Shown here one piece after another: positions 19,527 through 40,173 of a stretch of 40,209 nt of DNA (position 1 is its first letter; each line of letters starts with the position of its first letter). The notes beneath the pieces were generated by a model that made no database searches, had not been told where the DNA came from, and was given only the letters and a program-made list of their open reading frames with translations. The position numbers and the translations under genes were made by a program. Source of the DNA: a virus; IMG/VR virus record IMGVR_UViG_3300020147_000019, positions 1 through 40,209 of that record; one strand, 5' to 3'.

Positions 19527-22396
19527 TGAGATTTATAACCATATCGATCATTTTAATGGCAGGCATGATGGTTCTGAGCAGGGATTCAGCCGGCCCCGTT
19601 CCCTATGTGCCTACAATGGTCACTTATGATTCCACCTTCATGGGGCAACCTGTAAGAATCACCAGAAGGACAGATTTATTTTCCGGCAATTTCCAGTCGG
19701 TTGGGGCAGTGTATCATCCCGGCCTTGGCGAAGTTCCAAGCAGTAGTGTTTCAACCACCGTCAGAAATGGCCCACATGATTGGATGGACGACCCAGGGGC
19801 TACGTTTACAGGTGTGATTCAACTTGGCAATGGACCGTTTTATAATTTGGTTTTAATATCGATCAACCGCAATTGGGATTATCCAACTGGAACGACCCAG
19901 ATGGCAACCATGGATGAACTAATGAGTGGGCTTGTGTCTCATTTCAATATGGTTGATCTGAACTTAACTGGCATTTCTGCTGGGGGGTGGTTCGCACATA
20001 AATACGCGGCTGCTTACCCTCACAAGGTTAATTCCATTGTATCAGTGATGGGCGTCAATGCCAATGCCTCAATTACACAGCTGGCAACATGGGCAAGCGA
20101 TTACGGAGGCAAGGAACTGAACTTTGAAAACCTTAACGATACTCGCGGCGGTGATCAAATTGTCAACGCAATGAATGCGGCAGTCCCTGGGTCAGCGATT
20201 TACTTCAAAACAAAACTTGGTGAACCTGCACCTTATGGGCATGACAGCTATAAACTTGTTTACAACCCAACAAGGGCAACATGGGCCCACAATGCAACGG
20301 ACGTAAACAATACGATACCCGCCAGCCAGATCGTTTATTCTGATGTGCTAACCTGGATGGTTCGCCAAAGCGATACAACCATTGGCAGCGCAGGCAGCAG
20401 TAATATCCCGCCTACTGTGGATGTGGGTAGTGATCAAACTCTCACCTTCCCGGATAATGATGTAAGTGTAACCGCAACCGCTGCTGATGCAGACGGCACG
20501 ATTGCCTCTTACTACTGGGAAAAAATCTCAGGTCCGTTCTCATATGCAATAACAGACAACGACGGAGCTTCCACGGACATCACTGGAATGGAAACTGGCG
20601 TTTATGTTTTTCGATGCACAGTGACGGATGATGATGGCGCAACGTCCTATGATGAAATCACCATCACCATTAACGATCCTGAAGATGAGCCGCTTGTTGT
20701 GACAGCGTTTAAGGATACAACTTTAGCATGGGTTCAGACCAACAGCTGGGGGCTTACAACGCTACTTCCACTGTATGCCACGGCATCAGAAGCAGTAGAT
20801 GAATGGCATTGGGAAGTAATTGAAGGAACGGCGTCAGATATTACCTTCTCTACACCGGATAATGATTCTACAAACGCAGAAGGATTCCAACCAGGTATTT
20901 ACCGTTTCAGAGTAAATGCACTGACAGCAACAAAATCAGGTTCTGATACGATCACTATAAGAGTTGTGAATTATAATGAGAAAGGCCAATGCCCATGCAG
21001 GGAAGGACCGCCTGAGGTTCACGTAATAGGCGCTACAAATCAAATCTTCATTCCTTATATGCGAAGGAGCGGATATGACATTCAGGGCGGCGATACAATT
21101 AAGATCAATCCGGCTTCAAATGAATATGGAATTTATAACGGCATTAACATTGGAGACTTTGGAGGGAAGCCTGAATGTCCCGTTATCATAGTTCCCAACG
21201 GGGCGCCGGTTTACATTGGTGCGCTGCCGTCTGCTCCAACATTTACCAGCTTTTTCAGACTTGGCAATGGTACAGGCGATACGTGTTTTGTTTCTGACAT
21301 AGTGGTAGATGGAACATATTTGAGATGGAAAGGCTACCCGTATGGATTCTTACACATTGACCCAACGCCCTCAGACGGAGCAATTGGTATCACCGGTAAT
21401 CTGCTGAGGAATTTTGAATTTAAAGGGATATACCTGCAGGGCGTGGGCTCTGGCTTTGAAGTGAAACTAAATTCCGATTCTACAAGGCCATGGAGACTTG
21501 CATATCGGTTTGATCACGGGACCGGTATAATCCATGACAATTTCATCAGTAACAACCGCAATGAAACTACCTATATCGGTAACTCATATCCGGATAGCGG
21601 CGAAGAACACGACAACGACGGTGCCAGTGTCCGGGGTCTGGCTGTTTACATCTATAACAACATTGTGGATTCATCCGGGTGGGATGGACTGCAAGTATCT
21701 AACTGGCAATATGCGGAAATCCACAATAACGTACTGCTGACAACAGGAACAAAAAACAACGCAGTGCAGAGATCCGCAGCCGGTATCGGTGGGAACACAA
21801 CCGGTTACTTTAAAAACAATATTGTTTACAACGGCCATGATGGGTTTACATCAACTGGTTTTGGCCGCATCATTTTTGAAAGAAATTATTTCCAATTGGT
21901 AGACAACCGCGGCAACGGTGCCAGTGCAAACCACATTCTATTTGCGCCGCGACCAACAGGTCCGGGGACAGATGTTTTAGAAACCCGGGATTCGGGCCAC
22001 GCATATGTATTCAACAACATCTTCAACAAGCCGCAGGGGTATGCTTTCTGGGGCAAGAACACGGTAGGCGCAGCATCGAAAGGCATGGTAACTGGTAATT
22101 ACGTTATAGAATCCGGCAGTAGGGATTTAGACGATGTCCTTGTGACAGCCGCAGATGACACCATTGAAAACAACATTCTTTATACAGAACCTTTTGACCC
22201 TGTAATTGAGCGGATCGGTAATGCTACTGATGGCGTATTCATACGGGTAACGGTCGGCATCTACACTGCAGACTTTTACCCATCAGACACTATCGGTTCC
22301 GAAATATTTGATTGGATAAAACTTAGAATGCTCGGAGTGCGGCCGGCTGTATTGTCGGTACCACAGGGAACAAGGTTAAGAAGAAAGCCTGGATAA
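19523..22396 (+). CDS. exported alpha/beta-hydrolase + PKD + beta-helix protein (putative tailspike esterase)
   Basis: A 957-residue multidomain protein. Residues 1-22 are hydrophobic and signal-like. Residues about 30-285 form an alpha/beta-hydrolase domain: nucleophile elbow GISAGGW with Ser152, a candidate acid at Asp206, and His240 in PYGHDSYK. Residues about 295-385 are a PKD/REJ-type Ig domain (PPTVDVGSDQTL, TVTDDDGATSYDEITI), with a second Ig-like domain at about 388-475. From about 500 to 900, repeated short strands with Asn ladders (IHDNFISNN, YIYNNIVDSS, EIHNNVLLTT, YFKNNIVYNG) form a right-handed beta-helix. The whole suggests a polysaccharide esterase/depolymerase. Substrate and virion association are not shown. 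Confidence 0.8.
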   Translation: MMRFITISIILMAGMMVLSRDSAGPVPYVPTMVTYDSTFMGQPVRITRRTDLFSGNFQSVGAVYHPGLGEVPSSSVSTTVRNGPHDWMDDPGATFTGVIQLGNGPFYNLVLISINRNWDYPTGTTQMATMDELMSGLVSHFNMVDLNLTGISAGGWFAHKYAAAYPHKVNSIVSVMGVNANASITQLATWASDYGGKELNFENLNDTRGGDQIVNAMNAAVPGSAIYFKTKLGEPAPYGHDSYKLVYNPTRATWAHNATDVNNTIPASQIVYSDVLTWMVRQSDTTIGSAGSSNIPPTVDVGSDQTLTFPDNDVSVTATAADADGTIASYYWEKISGPFSYAITDNDGASTDITGMETGVYVFRCTVTDDDGATSYDEITITINDPEDEPLVVTAFKDTTLAWVQTNSWGLTTLLPLYATASEAVDEWHWEVIEGTASDITFSTPDNDSTNAEGFQPGIYRFRVNALTATKSGSDTITIRVVNYNEKGQCPCREGPPEVHVIGATNQIFIPYMRRSGYDIQGGDTIKINPASNEYGIYNGINIGDFGGKPECPVIIVPNGAPVYIGALPSAPTFTSFFRLGNGTGDTCFVSDIVVDGTYLRWKGYPYGFLHIDPTPSDGAIGITGNLLRNFEFKGIYLQGVGSGFEVKLNSDSTRPWRLAYRFDHGTGIIHDNFISNNRNETTYIGNSYPDSGEEHDNDGASVRGLAVYIYNNIVDSSGWDGLQVSNWQYAEIHNNVLLTTGTKNNAVQRSAAGIGGNTTGYFKNNIVYNGHDGFTSTGFGRIIFERNYFQLVDNRGNGASANHILFAPRPTGPGTDVLETRDSGHAYVFNNIFNKPQGYAFWGKNTVGAASKGMVTGNYVIESGSRDLDDVLVTAADDTIENNILYTEPFDPVIERIGNATDGVFIRVTVGIYTADFYPSDTIGSEIFDWIKLRMLGVRPAVLSVPQGTRLRRKPG

Positions 22397-30267: not shown

Positions 30268-30600
30268 ATGTACACCATTAACGACATCGCACGGATGGCA
30301 GGGTACCGGCAACCGCGCAAAATCACAAAACCATTCCGCTTCACCCACAACCTCACAAAAAAGGTAGTGCGTGATCTCAAAATTGTAACCGAAACGCTAC
30401 CTATTGAAGTATCTGGAACGGCATACATCACCCCCTCAGCATCCTTCGATGAACGCTTTGATGTGGACGTTGACCAGGTGATCTACAAAGGAATGGATGT
30501 ATCGGAGCTTTTGGACTTCGCAGGGGCCATGGAGGAAATTGAGGAAGCGGCAGTTGCGGCGGTTTCCGAAATGTTTAACGGTGAAAAATTATCAGCCTAA
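30268..30600 (+). CDS. hypothetical protein upstream of RecT, 110 aa
   Basis: A 110-residue acidic protein beginning MYTINDIARMAGYRQPRKIT, which could be a short DNA-binding helix. The C-terminal half is very acidic (MEEIEEAAVAAVSEMF). Its stop overlaps the recT start by one base, so the two are coupled. It takes the place where an exonuclease partner might sit, but no nuclease motif is visible. Confidence 0.6.
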   Translation: MYTINDIARMAGYRQPRKITKPFRFTHNLTKKVVRDLKIVTETLPIEVSGTAYITPSASFDERFDVDVDQVIYKGMDVSELLDFAGAMEEIEEAAVAAVSEMFNGEKLSA

Positions 30601-31538
30601 TGGACAATCAGCTTATTACAAGAACACAGTTTGCACCGGTTGAAAAACTGATGCAGGATGCAGGATTCGCACCTGAGCGTGTGAAGCAGGAAATTTCTTT
30701 TGCCATCCAATCAATCAACAAGAGTGCCCAGCTGCAAAAATGCTCAATGGACAGCCTGCTGCAGGCGGTGGTCAATGTTTCAAACGTTGGGCTCACACTA
30801 AACCCGGCAGCAAAGGAAGCATACCTGATCCCAAGATATAACGGCCTCACAAGATCAATGGAAGCAAGCCTGGACCCAAGTTACATCGGGCTTGTAAAAC
30901 TCCTTACCGATACCGGCAGCGTGAAATCCATGGTATGCCAAATCGTTCACGATAGAGACCATTTTGAAGTTGACCTGGCAAACAATACCTCACCCGTGGT
31001 TCACAAACCAGAACTATCATCCGGCGAACGTGGAAACATGAAAGGTGTATATGCGCTGGCAACCCTGGCTGATGGCACCCGGCAGGTAGAGTGGATGGAC
31101 GTGGATGAAGTAAACCAAATCAGGGACCGGAGCGAGACATACAAAGCCTTCAAAGCCGGAAAGATTCAATCATGCACATGGGCAAGCGACTACGGGGAAA
31201 TGTCCCGCAAAACCGTCATCAAACGAATTTACAAGTATCTGCCAAGGTCCGAAAAGGCTGCGGTTCTTGATAAGGCCATTGAACTGGACAACACCGACTA
31301 CATGGCAACGGATCAGCAAATTGATCTCATTGAAAACCTGATCAGGTCATCCACCTATGATGAAAGACAAAAGTCATGGCTGGAAATGGAGATCCCAACA
31401 ATGGGCGCAAAACGTGCCAGTGAGGTCATCGAAATGCTCAGGAACAATCAGCCATCCCTTCGCACCAGGATTCAGAACGGAGAAACGCTAAGCGCCGGTG
31501 AAATAGCAGGCGCGGTAAATCAGGCAGTAAATCATTAA
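30600..31538 (+). CDS. recT: RecT-family single-strand annealing protein
   Basis: A 312-residue protein with RecT family features: CSMDSLLQAVVNVSNVGLTL then NPAAKEAYLIPRYNG (about 46-82), YIGLVKLLTDTGSV (about 94-107) and the WASDYGEMSRKTVIKRIYKY segment (about 195-214). It anneals complementary strands in phage recombination. The C-terminal extension contains TDQQIDLIENLI. No RecE-type exonuclease is seen next to it. Confidence 0.93.
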   Translation: MDNQLITRTQFAPVEKLMQDAGFAPERVKQEISFAIQSINKSAQLQKCSMDSLLQAVVNVSNVGLTLNPAAKEAYLIPRYNGLTRSMEASLDPSYIGLVKLLTDTGSVKSMVCQIVHDRDHFEVDLANNTSPVVHKPELSSGERGNMKGVYALATLADGTRQVEWMDVDEVNQIRDRSETYKAFKAGKIQSCTWASDYGEMSRKTVIKRIYKYLPRSEKAAVLDKAIELDNTDYMATDQQIDLIENLIRSSTYDERQKSWLEMEIPTMGAKRASEVIEMLRNNQPSLRTRIQNGETLSAGEIAGAVNQAVNH

Positions 31539-34398: not shown

Positions 34399-34923
34399 AT
34401 GACACACAACATTACAAATGAGCAAGTAGCCCGTGTTTTCGCAATGTATTTGGGATGTGAAATAAGGTATGGCGAGAACGAAGAAGCAAGCACGTTGGAA
34501 AGCATAGCCACCAGCGGTTTGATTGGCGATGAAAATAGAGATGAAAGAGGAGAAGGTTGGTATGATCAAAGCGACTGCAAACTCCTTCTCACCCCACTTC
34601 ACGCCATATCAGATGAAGATGCGATTGAAGTAAGCAAGTTGTTTTGGAGGGGAAGTGCGACGAATGAAGAGAGAAAATATTTGGGTCGGATGGCCGTAGG
34701 GTTTCATTTTGAAAACTATTCTTGGGATTATGAAAATGGATTCGATACTGCTAAAAACAGAAAACGCATTTCAGAGATAGGCTTTATTGCAGCCACACGT
34801 ATCTACCAATACCTCATCCAAAAAAGCTATGCAGTCCCATTGTTCTTTGAACCCGGCCATCCAGACAACGGTAAAGACGCAATACAGCTTGGGCTTGCTA
34901 TTGATAAAACTAAAACAAAATGA
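34399..34923 (+). CDS. hypothetical accessory protein, 174 aa
   Basis: A 174-residue protein with a strong GGGAGGT site 8 bases upstream of ATG 34399. The start EQVARVFAMYLGCEIRYGE and the LHAISDEDAIEVSKLFWR segment (about 66-83) form a domain I associate with Bacteroidota phage accessory proteins of unknown function. Aromatic C-terminal helices follow. It opens the mosaic accessory block. Confidence 0.6.
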   Translation: MTHNITNEQVARVFAMYLGCEIRYGENEEASTLESIATSGLIGDENRDERGEGWYDQSDCKLLLTPLHAISDEDAIEVSKLFWRGSATNEERKYLGRMAVGFHFENYSWDYENGFDTAKNRKRISEIGFIAATRIYQYLIQKSYAVPLFFEPGHPDNGKDAIQLGLAIDKTKTK

Positions 34924-34933
34924 TTTTTGGAAG

Positions 34934-34985
34934 CCAGCGACATAGCCCTGATCAAAGCCTGTTGCGACGCTCCGGTTATCGACAA
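34934..34985 (-). repeat. boundary repeat, copy D (inverted)
   Basis: Read on the minus strand, it contains AACCGGAGCGTCGCAAC followed by a TATGTCGCTGGC end. It differs by one base from AACCGGAGCATCGCAAC of copy A at 35589-35605. It lies in the gap between two accessory genes. Confidence 0.55.
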
Positions 34986-35015
34986 CAATTCTAATCAATA
35001 AATAATTCATAGTGT

Positions 35016-35618
35016 ATGAAAGGCAAAAGAACTGGGATAGATTTTAGTAAACATCAGGTGATCGTTTCAGATCACGAGAATCTGCTCGTCCATTATTTGC
35101 GTAAGCCCGATACAATTTGCGGCAGTATTAAATACATAAACACAAACGGTATTCTCGCTGTCACAGGAGATTATGGCAACTGGATATTCTGCCGAGAATT
35201 TCACCCTTCAGCTAAGGGTTATGTATCTGATGGCTACTGGAAGGAAAAGTTACACATAGCTTCCTCGCAGGAAGCAAACGAATACGATGCGGAACATACA
35301 CAGGCAGAATTAGAAGCAAAGATTAATGGAGGCGCAGAAGAATATGGTTATACAGGTGAAAAACTCGAAAGGGCTTTAAAGTATTTCAAAGAATGCCTTT
35401 ATTATGTTGATGATGAATATGAATACATCAATTATGCCTACAGGCACACGCCGAGTTTTATGGATTCTGAAAGTGTGGTAATGGTTAAAAGGACTAAATA
35501 TTGGCTGATGGCTGTATTCGATGGTTTTGATGAAATATGCCGAAGGATAAGAGAAGGCGAACAGGTGCTCAACCAAGGCGAAACCCCTAACCGGAGCATC
35601 GCAACGAAAGATCAATAG
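35016..35618 (+). CDS. hypothetical accessory protein, 200 aa
   Basis: A 200-residue protein with aromatic- and acid-rich helices (YFKECLYYVDDEYEYINYAY) and an N-terminal beta region (SIKYINTNGILAVTGDYGNW). No family is recognised. Its last codons (NRSIATKDQ) are encoded by the boundary repeat copy A, so its C-terminal tail may be repeat-derived. Confidence 0.6.
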   Translation: MKGKRTGIDFSKHQVIVSDHENLLVHYLRKPDTICGSIKYINTNGILAVTGDYGNWIFCREFHPSAKGYVSDGYWKEKLHIASSQEANEYDAEHTQAELEAKINGGAEEYGYTGEKLERALKYFKECLYYVDDEYEYINYAYRHTPSFMDSESVVMVKRTKYWLMAVFDGFDEICRRIREGEQVLNQGETPNRSIATKDQ

Positions 35619-35640
35619 TAGCAATAGCCCTGACTAAAAT
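35589..35640 (+). repeat. boundary repeat, copy A
   Basis: AACCGGAGCATCGCAACGAA followed by AGATCAATAGTAGCAATAGC and CCTGAC. It straddles the stop codon of the 35016-35618 gene. Aligned core with copy B: CGCAACGAAAG then TAGTAGCAAT. Confidence 0.6.
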
Positions 35641-35684
35641 AAAACAAAACCGCCCGGTAAAAGGTTAGCCGGGGAGAAAGAAAG

Positions 35685-35999
35685 ATGAAATCAGGAATTG
35701 AACTTATTGCCGAGGAAAGACAAAGGCAAATTAGCGAAGAAGGTTGGACACCAGAACATGACGCTACCCATGACGTTGGCGAACTTGCTATGGCCGCCTC
35801 CTGTTACGCAATGATACACGAATATAGACCCGAGAAACTTGCGCCGTTGGGATGGCCGTGGAGTGATGAGTGGTGGAAGCCATCATTCATTAGGGATTCG
35901 TCTGGCAATATCATTCAACCTCCACATTTGCGAATCCGAGAATTACAAAAAGCAGGCGCATTGATAGCCGCTGAAATTGACCGCCTTCAAGCACTCTAA
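35685..35999 (+). CDS. phage MazG-like / dNTP-pyrophosphohydrolase-related small protein
   Basis: A 104-residue protein with the widespread phage pattern ELIAEERQRQISEEGWTPEH, then DVGELAMAASCYAM and WPWSDEWWKPS, ending RELQKAGALIAAEIDRLQ. This family is helical and resembles all-alpha nucleotide pyrophosphohydrolases in its EExRQ and GELA motifs; activity is not established by the motifs. It has a GGGGAGAAAG site upstream. Confidence 0.6.
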   Translation: MKSGIELIAEERQRQISEEGWTPEHDATHDVGELAMAASCYAMIHEYRPEKLAPLGWPWSDEWWKPSFIRDSSGNIIQPPHLRIRELQKAGALIAAEIDRLQAL

Positions 36000-36025
36000 T
36001 CTTAACCCCTCCAACTCTTTACACA

Positions 36026-37015
36026 ATGGAAAATAAACAATACTACGCAGATACAGCAACAACGGCTTTTGAAATGCTGGAACCGTTGCCGGAAAGAATT
36101 GAATATTTAAGACCGTGGCTATGGCAAGGAGCAGTTGAAGGATGGAAGATTCTTCACGCCTCCCAACCCCGCCTCCCCGTTGACGGCATGACCCTAACAC
36201 AAGGACAGGTGTATGAAGATGGGAAGGATGTGCTGGTGACGTATCAGTATTACCCTAATGGCGGAAATGAATGGGTTGACATTGATTTTATTGAATATGT
36301 AATAACGGATGAACACCGCCGCCGCATCGTCCTTGTTCCCGCTGTGCAAAGGGATTTGGATACCAGCGACAACAAAACCGAGGGATCGTCCCTTGCTACG
36401 CTCAGTTCATCGTCAGGTAATTCTATTGAGCAAAAAAATTTGGAAGATGAATTGTTGATCTATCTAACTGTTGCGAACAAGAGCGACAACCTTCGCCTGT
36501 CATTCATACGGTCTGCAAAGGAAAAAAGGTTCGTAATGCCAGCACTTGAAAGGGTGGAGTTTGGGGACAGCAAAATAATAGCAGATAATGAGAATTGGAT
36601 GAAAGACACCTTATATCCGGCCTTACAACGTTTTCAAAGAAGGGAAATGCAGCCCGGCGACAGGGAGATCATTAATGAAATCCTCAGCGATAGATCGACC
36701 GTTTATGATCAACTGGAAACGGTTAGTGAAGTAGAAATGATATTGCGTTATGCCATTCAAAACGACATGCTCAATAGCGAACAAGGCGTACAAGAGTGCG
36801 ACGCAACGAAAGCTGATAGTAGCAATGTCGCTGACCAACAAAATCTCCCCACAAGAGAGGAAATAGAGAGGGAGGCGGAGGGGATTTACGAAACCACAGG
36901 TTTTCGAGGGCCAATGTCAAAATCCCATTACGAGCACGAAAAGAAACATTGGATAGCAGGCGCAAACTATGTTCTCTCCCGTATTCAATCAAATCAATCA
37001 AAAAAGGAGTTATGA
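36026..37015 (+). CDS. mosaic accessory protein with internal boundary repeat
   Basis: A 329-residue protein of at least three segments. Residues 1-110 (RIEYLRPWLWQGAVEGWKIL, YEDGKDVLVTYQYYPNGGNE, DEHRRRIVLVPAV) look like one domain. A Ser-rich linker (EGSSLATLSSSSGNS) leads to a helical segment (about 135-250). A linker QECDATKADSSNVADQQ, encoded by boundary repeat copy B, leads to EGIYETTGFRGPMSKSHYEH and KHWIAGANYVLSRIQ. The repeat is intergenic elsewhere, which suggests a gene fusion. Confidence 0.6.
   Translation: MENKQYYADTATTAFEMLEPLPERIEYLRPWLWQGAVEGWKILHASQPRLPVDGMTLTQGQVYEDGKDVLVTYQYYPNGGNEWVDIDFIEYVITDEHRRRIVLVPAVQRDLDTSDNKTEGSSLATLSSSSGNSIEQKNLEDELLIYLTVANKSDNLRLSFIRSAKEKRFVMPALERVEFGDSKIIADNENWMKDTLYPALQRFQRREMQPGDREIINEILSDRSTVYDQLETVSEVEMILRYAIQNDMLNSEQGVQECDATKADSSNVADQQNLPTREEIEREAEGIYETTGFRGPMSKSHYEHEKKHWIAGANYVLSRIQSNQSKKEL
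36788..36846 (+). repeat. boundary repeat, copy B (inside a gene)
   Basis: GTACAAGAGTGCGACGCAA at 36788-36806 is identical over 19 bases to copy C at 38361-38379. It is followed by CGAAAGCTGATAGTAGCAAT and then GCTGACCAACAAA, which recurs at 37150 and 37351. Confidence 0.7.
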
Positions 37016-37560
37016 AAGAAGATAATTATGTACCAAGCGGCAGCGATGGCAAACAAACAGAGCAGGGAGATTTGGTAGCCGACGACAACCTGATCCCTAC
37101 CGATCAACAAATAAATAGTCTTGTTGATGAAATGTTTCCCGGTGATTCTGCTGACCAACAAAGACCCAATGTTATACTTTCAGAAAAGATGTTGAGCAAA
37201 GGGATATGGCTGATAGAGGTGAATCCAGAATATGCGAACCAGAGTTTTTCTGAATTGCTATTTCGAGATAGCAAGTTCCCAAACACAGTAATAACAGATG
37301 AAGATAGAACTGGTAGAGATCAAGGAGACTACTACAAAACACAGGTGCCTGCTGACCAACAAATAAAATCTCTTTCCGAGCAGTCACAGAACCGTATGCT
37401 AAACATTCTGATTGATGAAGGCGAAGGGCATCTATTCTCCCTCTCTGATAGGCAAATAATTTTCAGAGCAATGGAGATATACGCATCCGAGCAGCTAAGG
37501 GAGAAAGATAGTGAGATAGAGAGGTTGAGGAAAGAATTGGAGACCAGGGGTTCAGAATAA
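37012..37560 (+). CDS. accessory protein with repeated DQQ linkers, 182 aa
   Basis: A 182-residue protein from ATG 37012, which overlaps the previous stop and has GGAG just upstream. A start at 36949 is possible but lacks that site. It contains TDQQINSLVDEMFPG, ADQQRPNVILSEKM and ADQQIKSLSEQSQNRML, each beginning a new segment, and ends in a coiled coil (SEQLREKDSEIERLRKELET). No family is recognised; modular assembly is apparent. Confidence 0.6.
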   Translation: MKEDNYVPSGSDGKQTEQGDLVADDNLIPTDQQINSLVDEMFPGDSADQQRPNVILSEKMLSKGIWLIEVNPEYANQSFSELLFRDSKFPNTVITDEDRTGRDQGDYYKTQVPADQQIKSLSEQSQNRMLNILIDEGEGHLFSLSDRQIIFRAMEIYASEQLREKDSEIERLRKELETRGSE

Positions 37561-37588
37561 CTATTAAAACAATAAAACAAAAAATCAA

Positions 37589-37822
37589 ATGATAACATTT
37601 TTGGCAATTCCCTATTGCAGTAAGTGTAATCCTTTCAGAGCATCAAAAGAGTATGCCCCAATAGGTGACTTTTGGATGAAATGTAGTGGCTGCGGGAACG
37701 AGATTAAAGTTGGTAATCCAGCATCCTCAGATAGTGCAGGTCTACCCATAACGCAGGAAGGCCCTGAAAGCCAGCACGACGAGAAAAGCAAGTACCGTCC
37801 CGGCGGTAACACCACCGCATGA
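37589..37822 (+). CDS. small zinc-ribbon-like protein, 77 aa
   Basis: A 77-residue protein with two CxxC knuckles (YCSKCNPFRAS and KCSGCGNEIKVG), 24 residues apart, in the style of a zinc ribbon. The C-terminal third is disordered and Ser/Gln-rich. The function is unknown; such proteins are common in phage accessory blocks. Confidence 0.6.
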   Translation: MITFLAIPYCSKCNPFRASKEYAPIGDFWMKCSGCGNEIKVGNPASSDSAGLPITQEGPESQHDEKSKYRPGGNTTA

Positions 37823-37875
37823 AATGCCCATGAAGGGCTTCCAGGGATTGAGGTACACAACTAAACTTTTTTGAA

Positions 37876-38349
37876 ATGAGAAACATGTATCACGAAGGCG
37901 AAAGAATTGTTTATATCGTCTATCACGATAGCATCCCGCATGAAGTTATGACCGCATCTGAGGGTGGCTATCTCTCCTGGTATGACTTCAATTATTTCTA
38001 TGGTGATAAAAGAGACATACGGTGGTATAATTCAGGAGGGGGTGGGCGTCTCACTGAAATCCGAGCTCCACATTATATCGAAGGCACTAAAGGAGTATCA
38101 TATTGGATGGCGTCAGATGCTCGCTTTAAAGGGAAGCCTAAGAATTGTGTACGGGTTGCAAAACCCAAGAGAATCAGAGGGTGGCGTCGTACGAGCATCA
38201 ACCCGTTCAAAGTAGCCGATGAAACTTTAAGCTATGGGTATTGTGACCGATGTGATCAGCATGTAATAGATGAATGCCAAGAGCACCAATACTGGGATGA
38301 TGAAAATTCTTGCGTTAGATATTATGATAACAATGAAGTTGCCGAATAG
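37876..38349 (+). CDS. hypothetical accessory protein, 157 aa
   Basis: A 157-residue aromatic-rich protein (YLSWYDFNYFYGDKRDIRWY) with a basic middle (VAKPKRIRGWRRTS) and a C-terminal Cys/His set (YGYCDRCDQHVIDECQEHQY) that may bind metal. No family is recognised. Boundary repeat copy C begins just after its stop. Confidence 0.55.
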   Translation: MRNMYHEGERIVYIVYHDSIPHEVMTASEGGYLSWYDFNYFYGDKRDIRWYNSGGGGRLTEIRAPHYIEGTKGVSYWMASDARFKGKPKNCVRVAKPKRIRGWRRTSINPFKVADETLSYGYCDRCDQHVIDECQEHQYWDDENSCVRYYDNNEVAE

Positions 38350-38360
38350 AATTACAGGAC

Positions 38361-38415
38361 GTACAAGAGTGCGACGCAAGTAAAGCCCCACAGTAGCACA
38401 TCAGCTTAGTACAAA
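38361..38415 (+). repeat. boundary repeat, copy C
   Basis: GTACAAGAGTGCGACGCAA (38361-38379), then GTAAAGCCCCACAGTAGCAC. It is intergenic and matches copy B exactly over 19 bases with a similar AAAGC...AGTAGCA continuation. Confidence 0.65.
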
Positions 38416-38434
38416 ATAAAAATCATAACCTATC

Positions 38435-39498: not shown

Positions 39499-40173
39499 AT
39501 GAAAATACTTAATCTATATAGCGGCATCGGAGGAAACAGGAAGCTATGGAAGGACGTAGAGGTAACGGCTGTTGAGTACAATGAAGAAATAGCAGCCATC
39601 TACCAGGAATACTTCCCCGGTGACAAGGTGGTGGTAGGTGATGCTCATGAATACCTTTTAAAGCACTATAAGGAGTTTGACTTTATATGGAGCTCGCCGC
39701 CCTGTCAAACACATTCAAGAACTAATTATTTTCTAAACGCTCAGGGTACTGTGCGCTACCCTGATATGAAGCTGTGGCAGGAAATTCTATTTCTTAGTGA
39801 ATTTTCCAAAGGAAAGTATGTAGTTGAAAATGTTATCTCTTATTATCCTCCCCTGATCCAGCCACAAGTGATTGCACGGCATTATTTCTGGTCAAATTTC
39901 AAAATCGTTCCACCGGCTTTTAAGATAGAAACTCATGTAGGTAGGATGTGTGGGAAGAAGGAGGATTTGGGGGTAACACAATTTGAACTACGCAAAGACA
40001 GGCAAAAAGGGCTTGGCTTTGACCTGACCCGGTTTGATGCCAAGGATAAAGATCAGATGCTTAGGAACTGTGTTCACCCTGAACTCGGTCTTTACATCCT
40101 GGAACAGGCGCAGGGTATCATAAGGCAGGAGAAAACAAACCAGCTTGGATTATTTAACCATGATGCCGCATAG
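39499..40173 (+). CDS. DNA cytosine-5 methyltransferase-like protein (orphan)
   Basis: A 224-residue protein with DNMT-type motifs: motif I LNLYSGIGGNRK (4-15), the acidic GDAHEYL (47-53), motif IV SSPPCQTHSR with catalytic Cys69 and the VVENVISYY motif VI (108-116). It is shorter than typical C5 methylases and lacks a clear target-recognition domain. No restriction endonuclease is adjacent. It may protect phage DNA or modify host regulation; specificity cannot be read. Confidence 0.82.
   Translation: MKILNLYSGIGGNRKLWKDVEVTAVEYNEEIAAIYQEYFPGDKVVVGDAHEYLLKHYKEFDFIWSSPPCQTHSRTNYFLNAQGTVRYPDMKLWQEILFLSEFSKGKYVVENVISYYPPLIQPQVIARHYFWSNFKIVPPAFKIETHVGRMCGKKEDLGVTQFELRKDRQKGLGFDLTRFDAKDKDQMLRNCVHPELGLYILEQAQGIIRQEKTNQLGLFNHDAA

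Follow-up and report, generated by a model that had tools for sequence, protein, structure and literature searches.

Copies of a dispersed Chitinophagaceae chromosomal repeat in a temperate phage

The short repeats that recur among the genes of the phage studied here are copies of a dispersed repeat of ~85 bp from the chromosomes of Chitinophagaceae, a family of soil bacteria. The window, the whole 40,209-nt stretch of the IMG/VR virus record IMGVR_UViG_3300020147_000019, comes from a temperate phage with terminase, portal, integrase and RecT genes (RecT at 30600-31538). The phage copies probably go back to a short interspersed repeat, specific to the family of the presumed host, that spread as a non-autonomous mobile repeat and was copied into the phage. 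The original prediction had described four related elements, the first of them inverted, and all four are present in the sequence; a further probable copy, here called copy 5, had been missed. The features discussed below are as follows.

34913..34985, minus strand: copy 1 (probable), inverted; weak profile score, E 0.4-4.6 (34913-34971)
35016..35618, plus strand: accessory gene, phrog_5051-like, function unknown; its 3′ end is element-derived
35563..35640, plus strand: copy 2, with a diverged core AACCGGAGCATCGCAACGAAAG; found by profile and by BLAST (E 1.1e-4 with copy 3)
36026..37015, plus strand: ORF with two element copies (3 and 5) in frame between presumed domains
36363..36434, minus strand: copy 5 (probable), inverted, in frame inside ORF 36026-37015
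36767..36847, plus strand: copy 3, full-length; profile E 1.6e-14, alignment, and a 20-bp exact match with copy 4
37150..37162, plus strand: right-end-like word GCTGACCAACAAA, an exact 13-mer found at three sites including 36830-36842
37351..37363, plus strand: the same exact 13-mer, a second remnant-like copy
37876..38349, plus strand: accessory gene, ended by the left arm of copy 4
38338..38425, plus strand: copy 4, full-length; profile E 5.5e-12 to 3.5e-15, sequence and alignment

The window was scored with a profile built from 108 chromosomal copies. Copies 3 and 4 have a 20-bp exact word in common (CGTACAAGAGTGCGACGCAA, at 36788 and 38361). It had been claimed that an identity of 19 bases is not expected by chance in 40 kb. 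For the exact word alone, judged within the window, this is borderline, as Markov-1 simulations of a 40-kb sequence gave an exact repeat of 20 in 2 of 40 cases, but the longer alignment in the window (33 nt at 88%) is not due to chance. A BLAST search of the window with copy 3 returned copy 4 with E 3.7e-7 and copy 2 with E 1.1e-4. Decisive support for the repeat comes from external matches, in IMG/VR stretches and in stretches of bacterial genomes. The profile match of copy 2 spans 35600-35640 (E 0.044, and 0.011 with a second profile). Copy 1 starts right behind the stop codon (34921-34923) of the gene at 34399-34923, reading TGA-TTTTT-GGAAGCCAGC. This is the chromosomal layout, STOP-TTTTT-GGAAGCC..., and the copy aligns over its full length with the others, sharing AACCGGAGCRTCGCAAC with copy 2 and TGTCGCTGR with copy 3. 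Copy 5 also aligns over its full length; its profile score is below significance (E 2.7, 36380-36434), its left arm TTGCTCAATAGAATTAC agrees with the chromosomal consensus, and it forms an inverted pair with copy 4. On these comparisons, copies 3 and 4 are certain, copy 2 is well supported, and copies 1 and 5 are probable. The profile scores neither of the two GCTGACCAACAAA words at 37150 and 37351 as an element, and they are either element remnants or a coincidence of an ADQQ coding motif. The core common to copies 1 and 2 (type F, ACCGGAGCRTCGCAA) was considered as a separate genomic subfamily and rejected, as it gave three single hits in 195 genomes, which is about the chance level; viral hits numbered 10. 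Elsewhere in the window, a 20-bp repeat at 95% identity (ACATGGGCAAGCGAYTACGG) is shared by positions 20087-20106 and 31176-31195 in two distant genes.

Beyond the window, the 19-mer was found exactly in 8 IMG/VR stretches and the 17-bp core ACAAGWGTGCGACGCAA in 49. A 25-bp core occurred exactly in 107 stretches of GTDB genome contigs. Among the titles listed for these matches, all that carry a family or genus name say Chitinophagaceae or one of its genera (Segetibacter, Flavisolibacter, Foetidibacter, Terrimonas), and a few say only Bacteroidota. Exact 17-bp cores numbered 1805 in genome G001, 1346 in G134, 1148 in G388, 969 in G007, 723 in G308, 721 in G313 and 188 in G002, with a range of 0-1,805 within the family; the reversed-pattern control gave 0. 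In the family sample, 83 of 195 genomes had the core. A sample of 247 genomes from the whole phylum gave only 4 with the core, each of which also belongs to the family sample. The expectation that copies would be found in other genomes next to differing neighbours is borne out at thousands of chromosomal places. Collections of phage and plasmid records, which may hold few Chitinophagaceae replicons, contained no match to the element. The presumed hosts of the phage are Chitinophagaceae, an assignment that rests on the repeat; relatives of the portal gene within the family are few and distant.

The element, with the consensus TTGCTGAATAGAATTACAGAACGTACAAGAGTGCGACGCAACGAAAGCTTAATAGTAGCAATTCTGCCGGGCTCATAAAAAA, has three parts: TTGCTGAATAGAATTACAGAACG as its left arm, GTACAAGAGTGCGACGCAACGAAAGC as its core, which is strongly conserved, and a right arm with GCCGGGCTCATAAAAAA at its end. 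The A-run is usually of 3-7 bases (226 well-scoring copies). At least three core types have the same right arm in common. Two core types besides the main one, ACAAGTGAGTGACACAA in G001, G007, G308 and G388 and GAGCGTGGCAAG in G007 only, carry the right arm of the main type, and the repeat is thus modular. No conserved secondary structure was detected by RNAalifold in 236 copies, and fold z-scores of about 0 on the plus strand and +0.6 on the minus strand indicate no hairpin in either RNA or DNA. No Rfam family matched at gathering thresholds. By inspection, the two ends of the consensus (TTGCTGAATA... and ...GCCGGGCTCATAAAA) do not form an inverted pair, and no target-site duplication was seen in 226 copies, whose flanking words were as long as those of shuffled pairs, the element ends being approximate. 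On the reverse strand a CGTC is followed only by an imperfect stem of 4-5 bp, compared with the 8-9 bp of CGTC-tagged REPs. In one locus (L195:9035-9330) a palindromic insert ccccgagttccgtcgctgcgctcctcgtcgggg, apparently another, REP-like repeat of that genome, interrupts the core of a copy.

The repeat had been described as dispersed and mostly at gene ends, which was seen both in the window and on the host chromosomes. In 400 kb of G308, 78 of the 88 copies are intergenic. In 48 of these the right end is turned towards the 3′ end of a gene, and in 27 of the 48 no more than 10 bp separate the copy from the stop codon; a spike near gene 5′ ends was looked for in the same region and was absent. 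In three genomes, 207 cases lie within about 40 bp of a 3′ end, and the common pattern in gene sense is STOP, 0-10 nt, a T-run and GAGCCCGGC...GTTGCGTCGCACTCTTGTACG. Convergent gaps contain 2.99 copies per kb, tandem gaps 1.42 and divergent gaps 0.85, and coding sequence contains 11 copies in 348 kb, with genes called simply as longest ORFs, which fixes stops well and starts poorly. Of the 41 copies in the tandem gaps of G308, 17 have the opposite orientation, and inverted (-,+) pairs of copies are frequent.

In the phage, the element reaches into the genes. Gene 35016-35618 owes its last ~17 codons (VLNQGETPNRSIATKDQ) and its stop to copy 2, and the homology of this gene to its phage relatives stops at about residue 177-190, near the element start. 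Its relatives in 14 other viral loci have different C-termini, lack the element by profile, and have almost wholly different neighbours. No match to the gene family was found in 195 Chitinophagaceae genomes, in a search that had no positive control. Joint arrival of copy 2 with a host gene is therefore improbable, and within that scope capture of a host gene was rejected as the source of gene 35016-35618. From L181:6001 onwards, a homologue of the gene is fused to a C-terminal domain resembling, by eye, NADAR/YbiA. The left arm of copy 4 (GCCGAATAG) gives gene 37876-38349 its last codons and its TAG stop (38347-38349); this gene had no relatives among the viral contigs scanned. In the putative ORF 36026-37015, copy 3 and probably copy 5 are in-frame insertions in coding sequence, as known from Rickettsia palindromic elements (RPEs). 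Read in frame, copy 3 encodes about MLNSEQGVQECDATKADSSNVADQQN, and the two copies appear to separate what look like three domains. The ORF gave no Pfam or PHROG match and had no relative among the viral contigs scanned. Phages related by RecT (L246-L249) each have at most one further window gene and no convincing element.

Two other genes of this part of the window deserve mention. The small ORF at 35685-35999 matches several PHROG families of much greater length, among them phrog_6628, over their C-terminal ~85 residues, and this module occurs both alone and fused. The C5 cytosine methyltransferase gene at 39499-40173 (224 aa) matches its family only over residues 1-112, covering only the first 111 of 324 family positions, and may be truncated or diverged.

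The persistence of the element was followed in the congeners G001 and G007, which are 77-86% identical in aligned stretches. Near aligned anchors, 18 of 37 elements had a partner by profile and about 6 more by core search. Orthologous sites show 90% identity in the core against 62-72% in the arms, and a change of core type has occurred at some of the shared sites. Random copy pairs have a core identity of 0.893 versus 0.901 at orthologous sites; a clearly higher similarity at the latter was seen for the right arm alone (0.72 vs 0.65, p 1.5e-4). To judge by these alignments the sites are inherited, and the conservation of the core could reflect selection, conversion between copies, or turnover in the same place. 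A search for empty sites between the two genomes showed most sites to be shared, with absences falling in poorly alignable gaps and no clean empty/filled pair. G388 contains a tandem array (L250-L252, G388:C1:249687-297471) of 18 FtsX/MacB-like permease genes, the family name being given by eye. These genes encode ~800 aa and are 30-53% identical (median 36%), and 17 of the 18 have one element 2-39 bp behind the stop, with a single orientation throughout. Were the DNA between the genes neutral, an intact core should not have survived so much divergence of the paralogues. Since the core persists at congener sites as well as behind 17 of 18 ancient paralogues, it would be either selected or constantly renewed.

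This persistence bears on the most serious alternative to a mobile host repeat, which has a real but smaller chance of being correct: that the element is a functional site at host gene 3′ ends, serving transcription termination, control of the mRNA 3′ end or of translation termination, or chromosome organisation, that it is under selection, and that phage genes need the same site. Such a site would account for right ends 0-10 bp behind stop codons, for a core kept at orthologous sites where the arms have diverged, and for the single, equally oriented copies behind the permease paralogues. It would also agree with E. coli REPs, for which ribosome stalling has been reported when they lie within 15 nt of a stop codon, according to work cited in PMC12306157. 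However, random copy pairs are equally identical in the core, so that its conservation needs no site-specific selection; copy number varies from 0 to 1805 inside one family, the reversed copies in the tandem gaps of G308 do not follow one orientation, and RNA structure is absent. Mobility, for its part, has left no clean empty/filled pair, no target-site duplication and no mobilising gene that we could find, and the sharing between congeners and paralogues suits a functional site kept in place better than a mobile element on the move. By analogy with E. coli REPs, as they are presented in PMC12306157, a mobile repeat and a functional 3′-end site are not exclusive.

The other explanations fare less well. 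Movement as a REP/REPIN by a RAYT-type (Y1, HUH) transposase is very unlikely. High copy number, extragenic position, frequent inverted (-,+) pairs and proximity to stop codons all recall such elements, as do the reverse-strand CGTC and its weak stem, which resemble the CGTC-tagged REPs of PMC3733652, but the fold z-scores and the RNAalifold result speak against it, and the presence of Y1_Tnp is unrelated to copy number. We rejected RAYT/Y1 as the mobiliser, as Y1_Tnp was found in 12 of 16 genomes with at least 50 copies versus 131 of 179 others; none was found in G388 with its 1148 copies, and Y1 genes are not regularly flanked by the repeat. Very unlikely, too, is the role given to the repeats in the original prediction, namely that of recombination junctions exchanging accessory phage genes with the help of the phage RecT. 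The copies at gene ends, their common 20-bp exact stretch, the RecT gene itself and an ORF (36026-37015) that resembles a fusion of pieces joined at elements would suit this role. Against it, gene 35016-35618 was found in other contexts without the repeat, which is thus not required for shuffling, no relatives were found for the other flanking genes, and the repeat holds the same positions on host chromosomes. Nothing ties RecT to the repeat, whose gene-end position is general on host chromosomes, without phage RecT. Chance similarity of coding linkers might be argued from the borderline exact 20-mer and the weak scores of copies 1 and 5, but it is hardly conceivable given thousands of matching copies in host genomes versus a control of 0, and the E values of 1e-14 to 1e-12 refute it for copies 3 and 4.

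We thus return to the host repeat copied into the phage. This reading starts from the observed identity with the chromosomal repeat, from the copy number and gene-end position of the latter, and from the finding that phage relatives of gene 35016-35618 lack the repeat. From there we infer that it spread as a non-autonomous mobile repeat, with a protein that binds the core. A putative host factor recognising the core would move the repeat. Insertions in most places would break genes, so that those tolerated would mainly be ones right behind a stop codon or ones that can be read as open frame. The phage may have taken its copies from the host through such an insertion or through recombination with host DNA, and later changes would have made C-terminal tails and in-frame linkers of some of them. 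That the core hardly varies suggests a protein binding to it, either to move the repeat or in some function at the 3′ ends of genes. More speculatively, the repeat might represent a new class of short interspersed elements, composed of an A-rich right module and at least three core/left modules (GTGCGACGCAA, GTGAGTGACACAA, GAGCGTGGCAAG), without hairpin, inverted ends or target duplication, which would be installed behind stops, be kept or rewritten there through selection or gene conversion, and could enter phages. This we consider possible but doubtful.

Several known systems invite comparison. Integron attC sites are situated behind gene stop codons in a preferred orientation, and have conserved ends and a conserved secondary structure. 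Our element resembles them in lying oriented behind stops, and in the G388 array it follows nearly every gene, but it has a conserved centre and variable arms and occurs genome-wide on both strands. With REP/REPIN sequences (PMC3733652, PMC3116915) it has in common the short length, the hundreds to thousands of extragenic copies, the frequent inverted neighbours, the position near stop codons and the uneven distribution between related genomes. It differs from them in its ~85-bp length, its non-palindromic core of 19-25 bp, its A-rich right end, and in having neither a conserved palindrome or hairpin nor an association with RAYT. RPEs, which are ~150 bp long, palindromic and mostly intragenic (PMC10969869), are likewise short repeats found in frame in genes as linker-like segments; our element is not palindromic, and its in-frame copies are the exception. 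As with MITEs such as CIR, RUP and ERIC (PMC10969869), it is small, dispersed, intergenic and non-autonomous, but it has no visible terminal inverted repeats and no detected target-site duplication. Because tests for a hairpin, a RAYT link, inverted ends and target duplication were all negative, it is not a member of the REP, MITE or RPE families and is best filed as a REP/RPE-like, non-palindromic and apparently undescribed family; neither the core string nor a description of such a repeat in Chitinophagaceae was found in the open-access literature.

A repeat that stands at a large share of the gene 3′ ends of one bacterial family makes the spread and function of short repeats directly testable. 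It also provides a sequence tag by which uncultured phages could be connected with hosts among the Chitinophagaceae, and the phage offers an example of repeat DNA turned into the tails and linkers of putative proteins.
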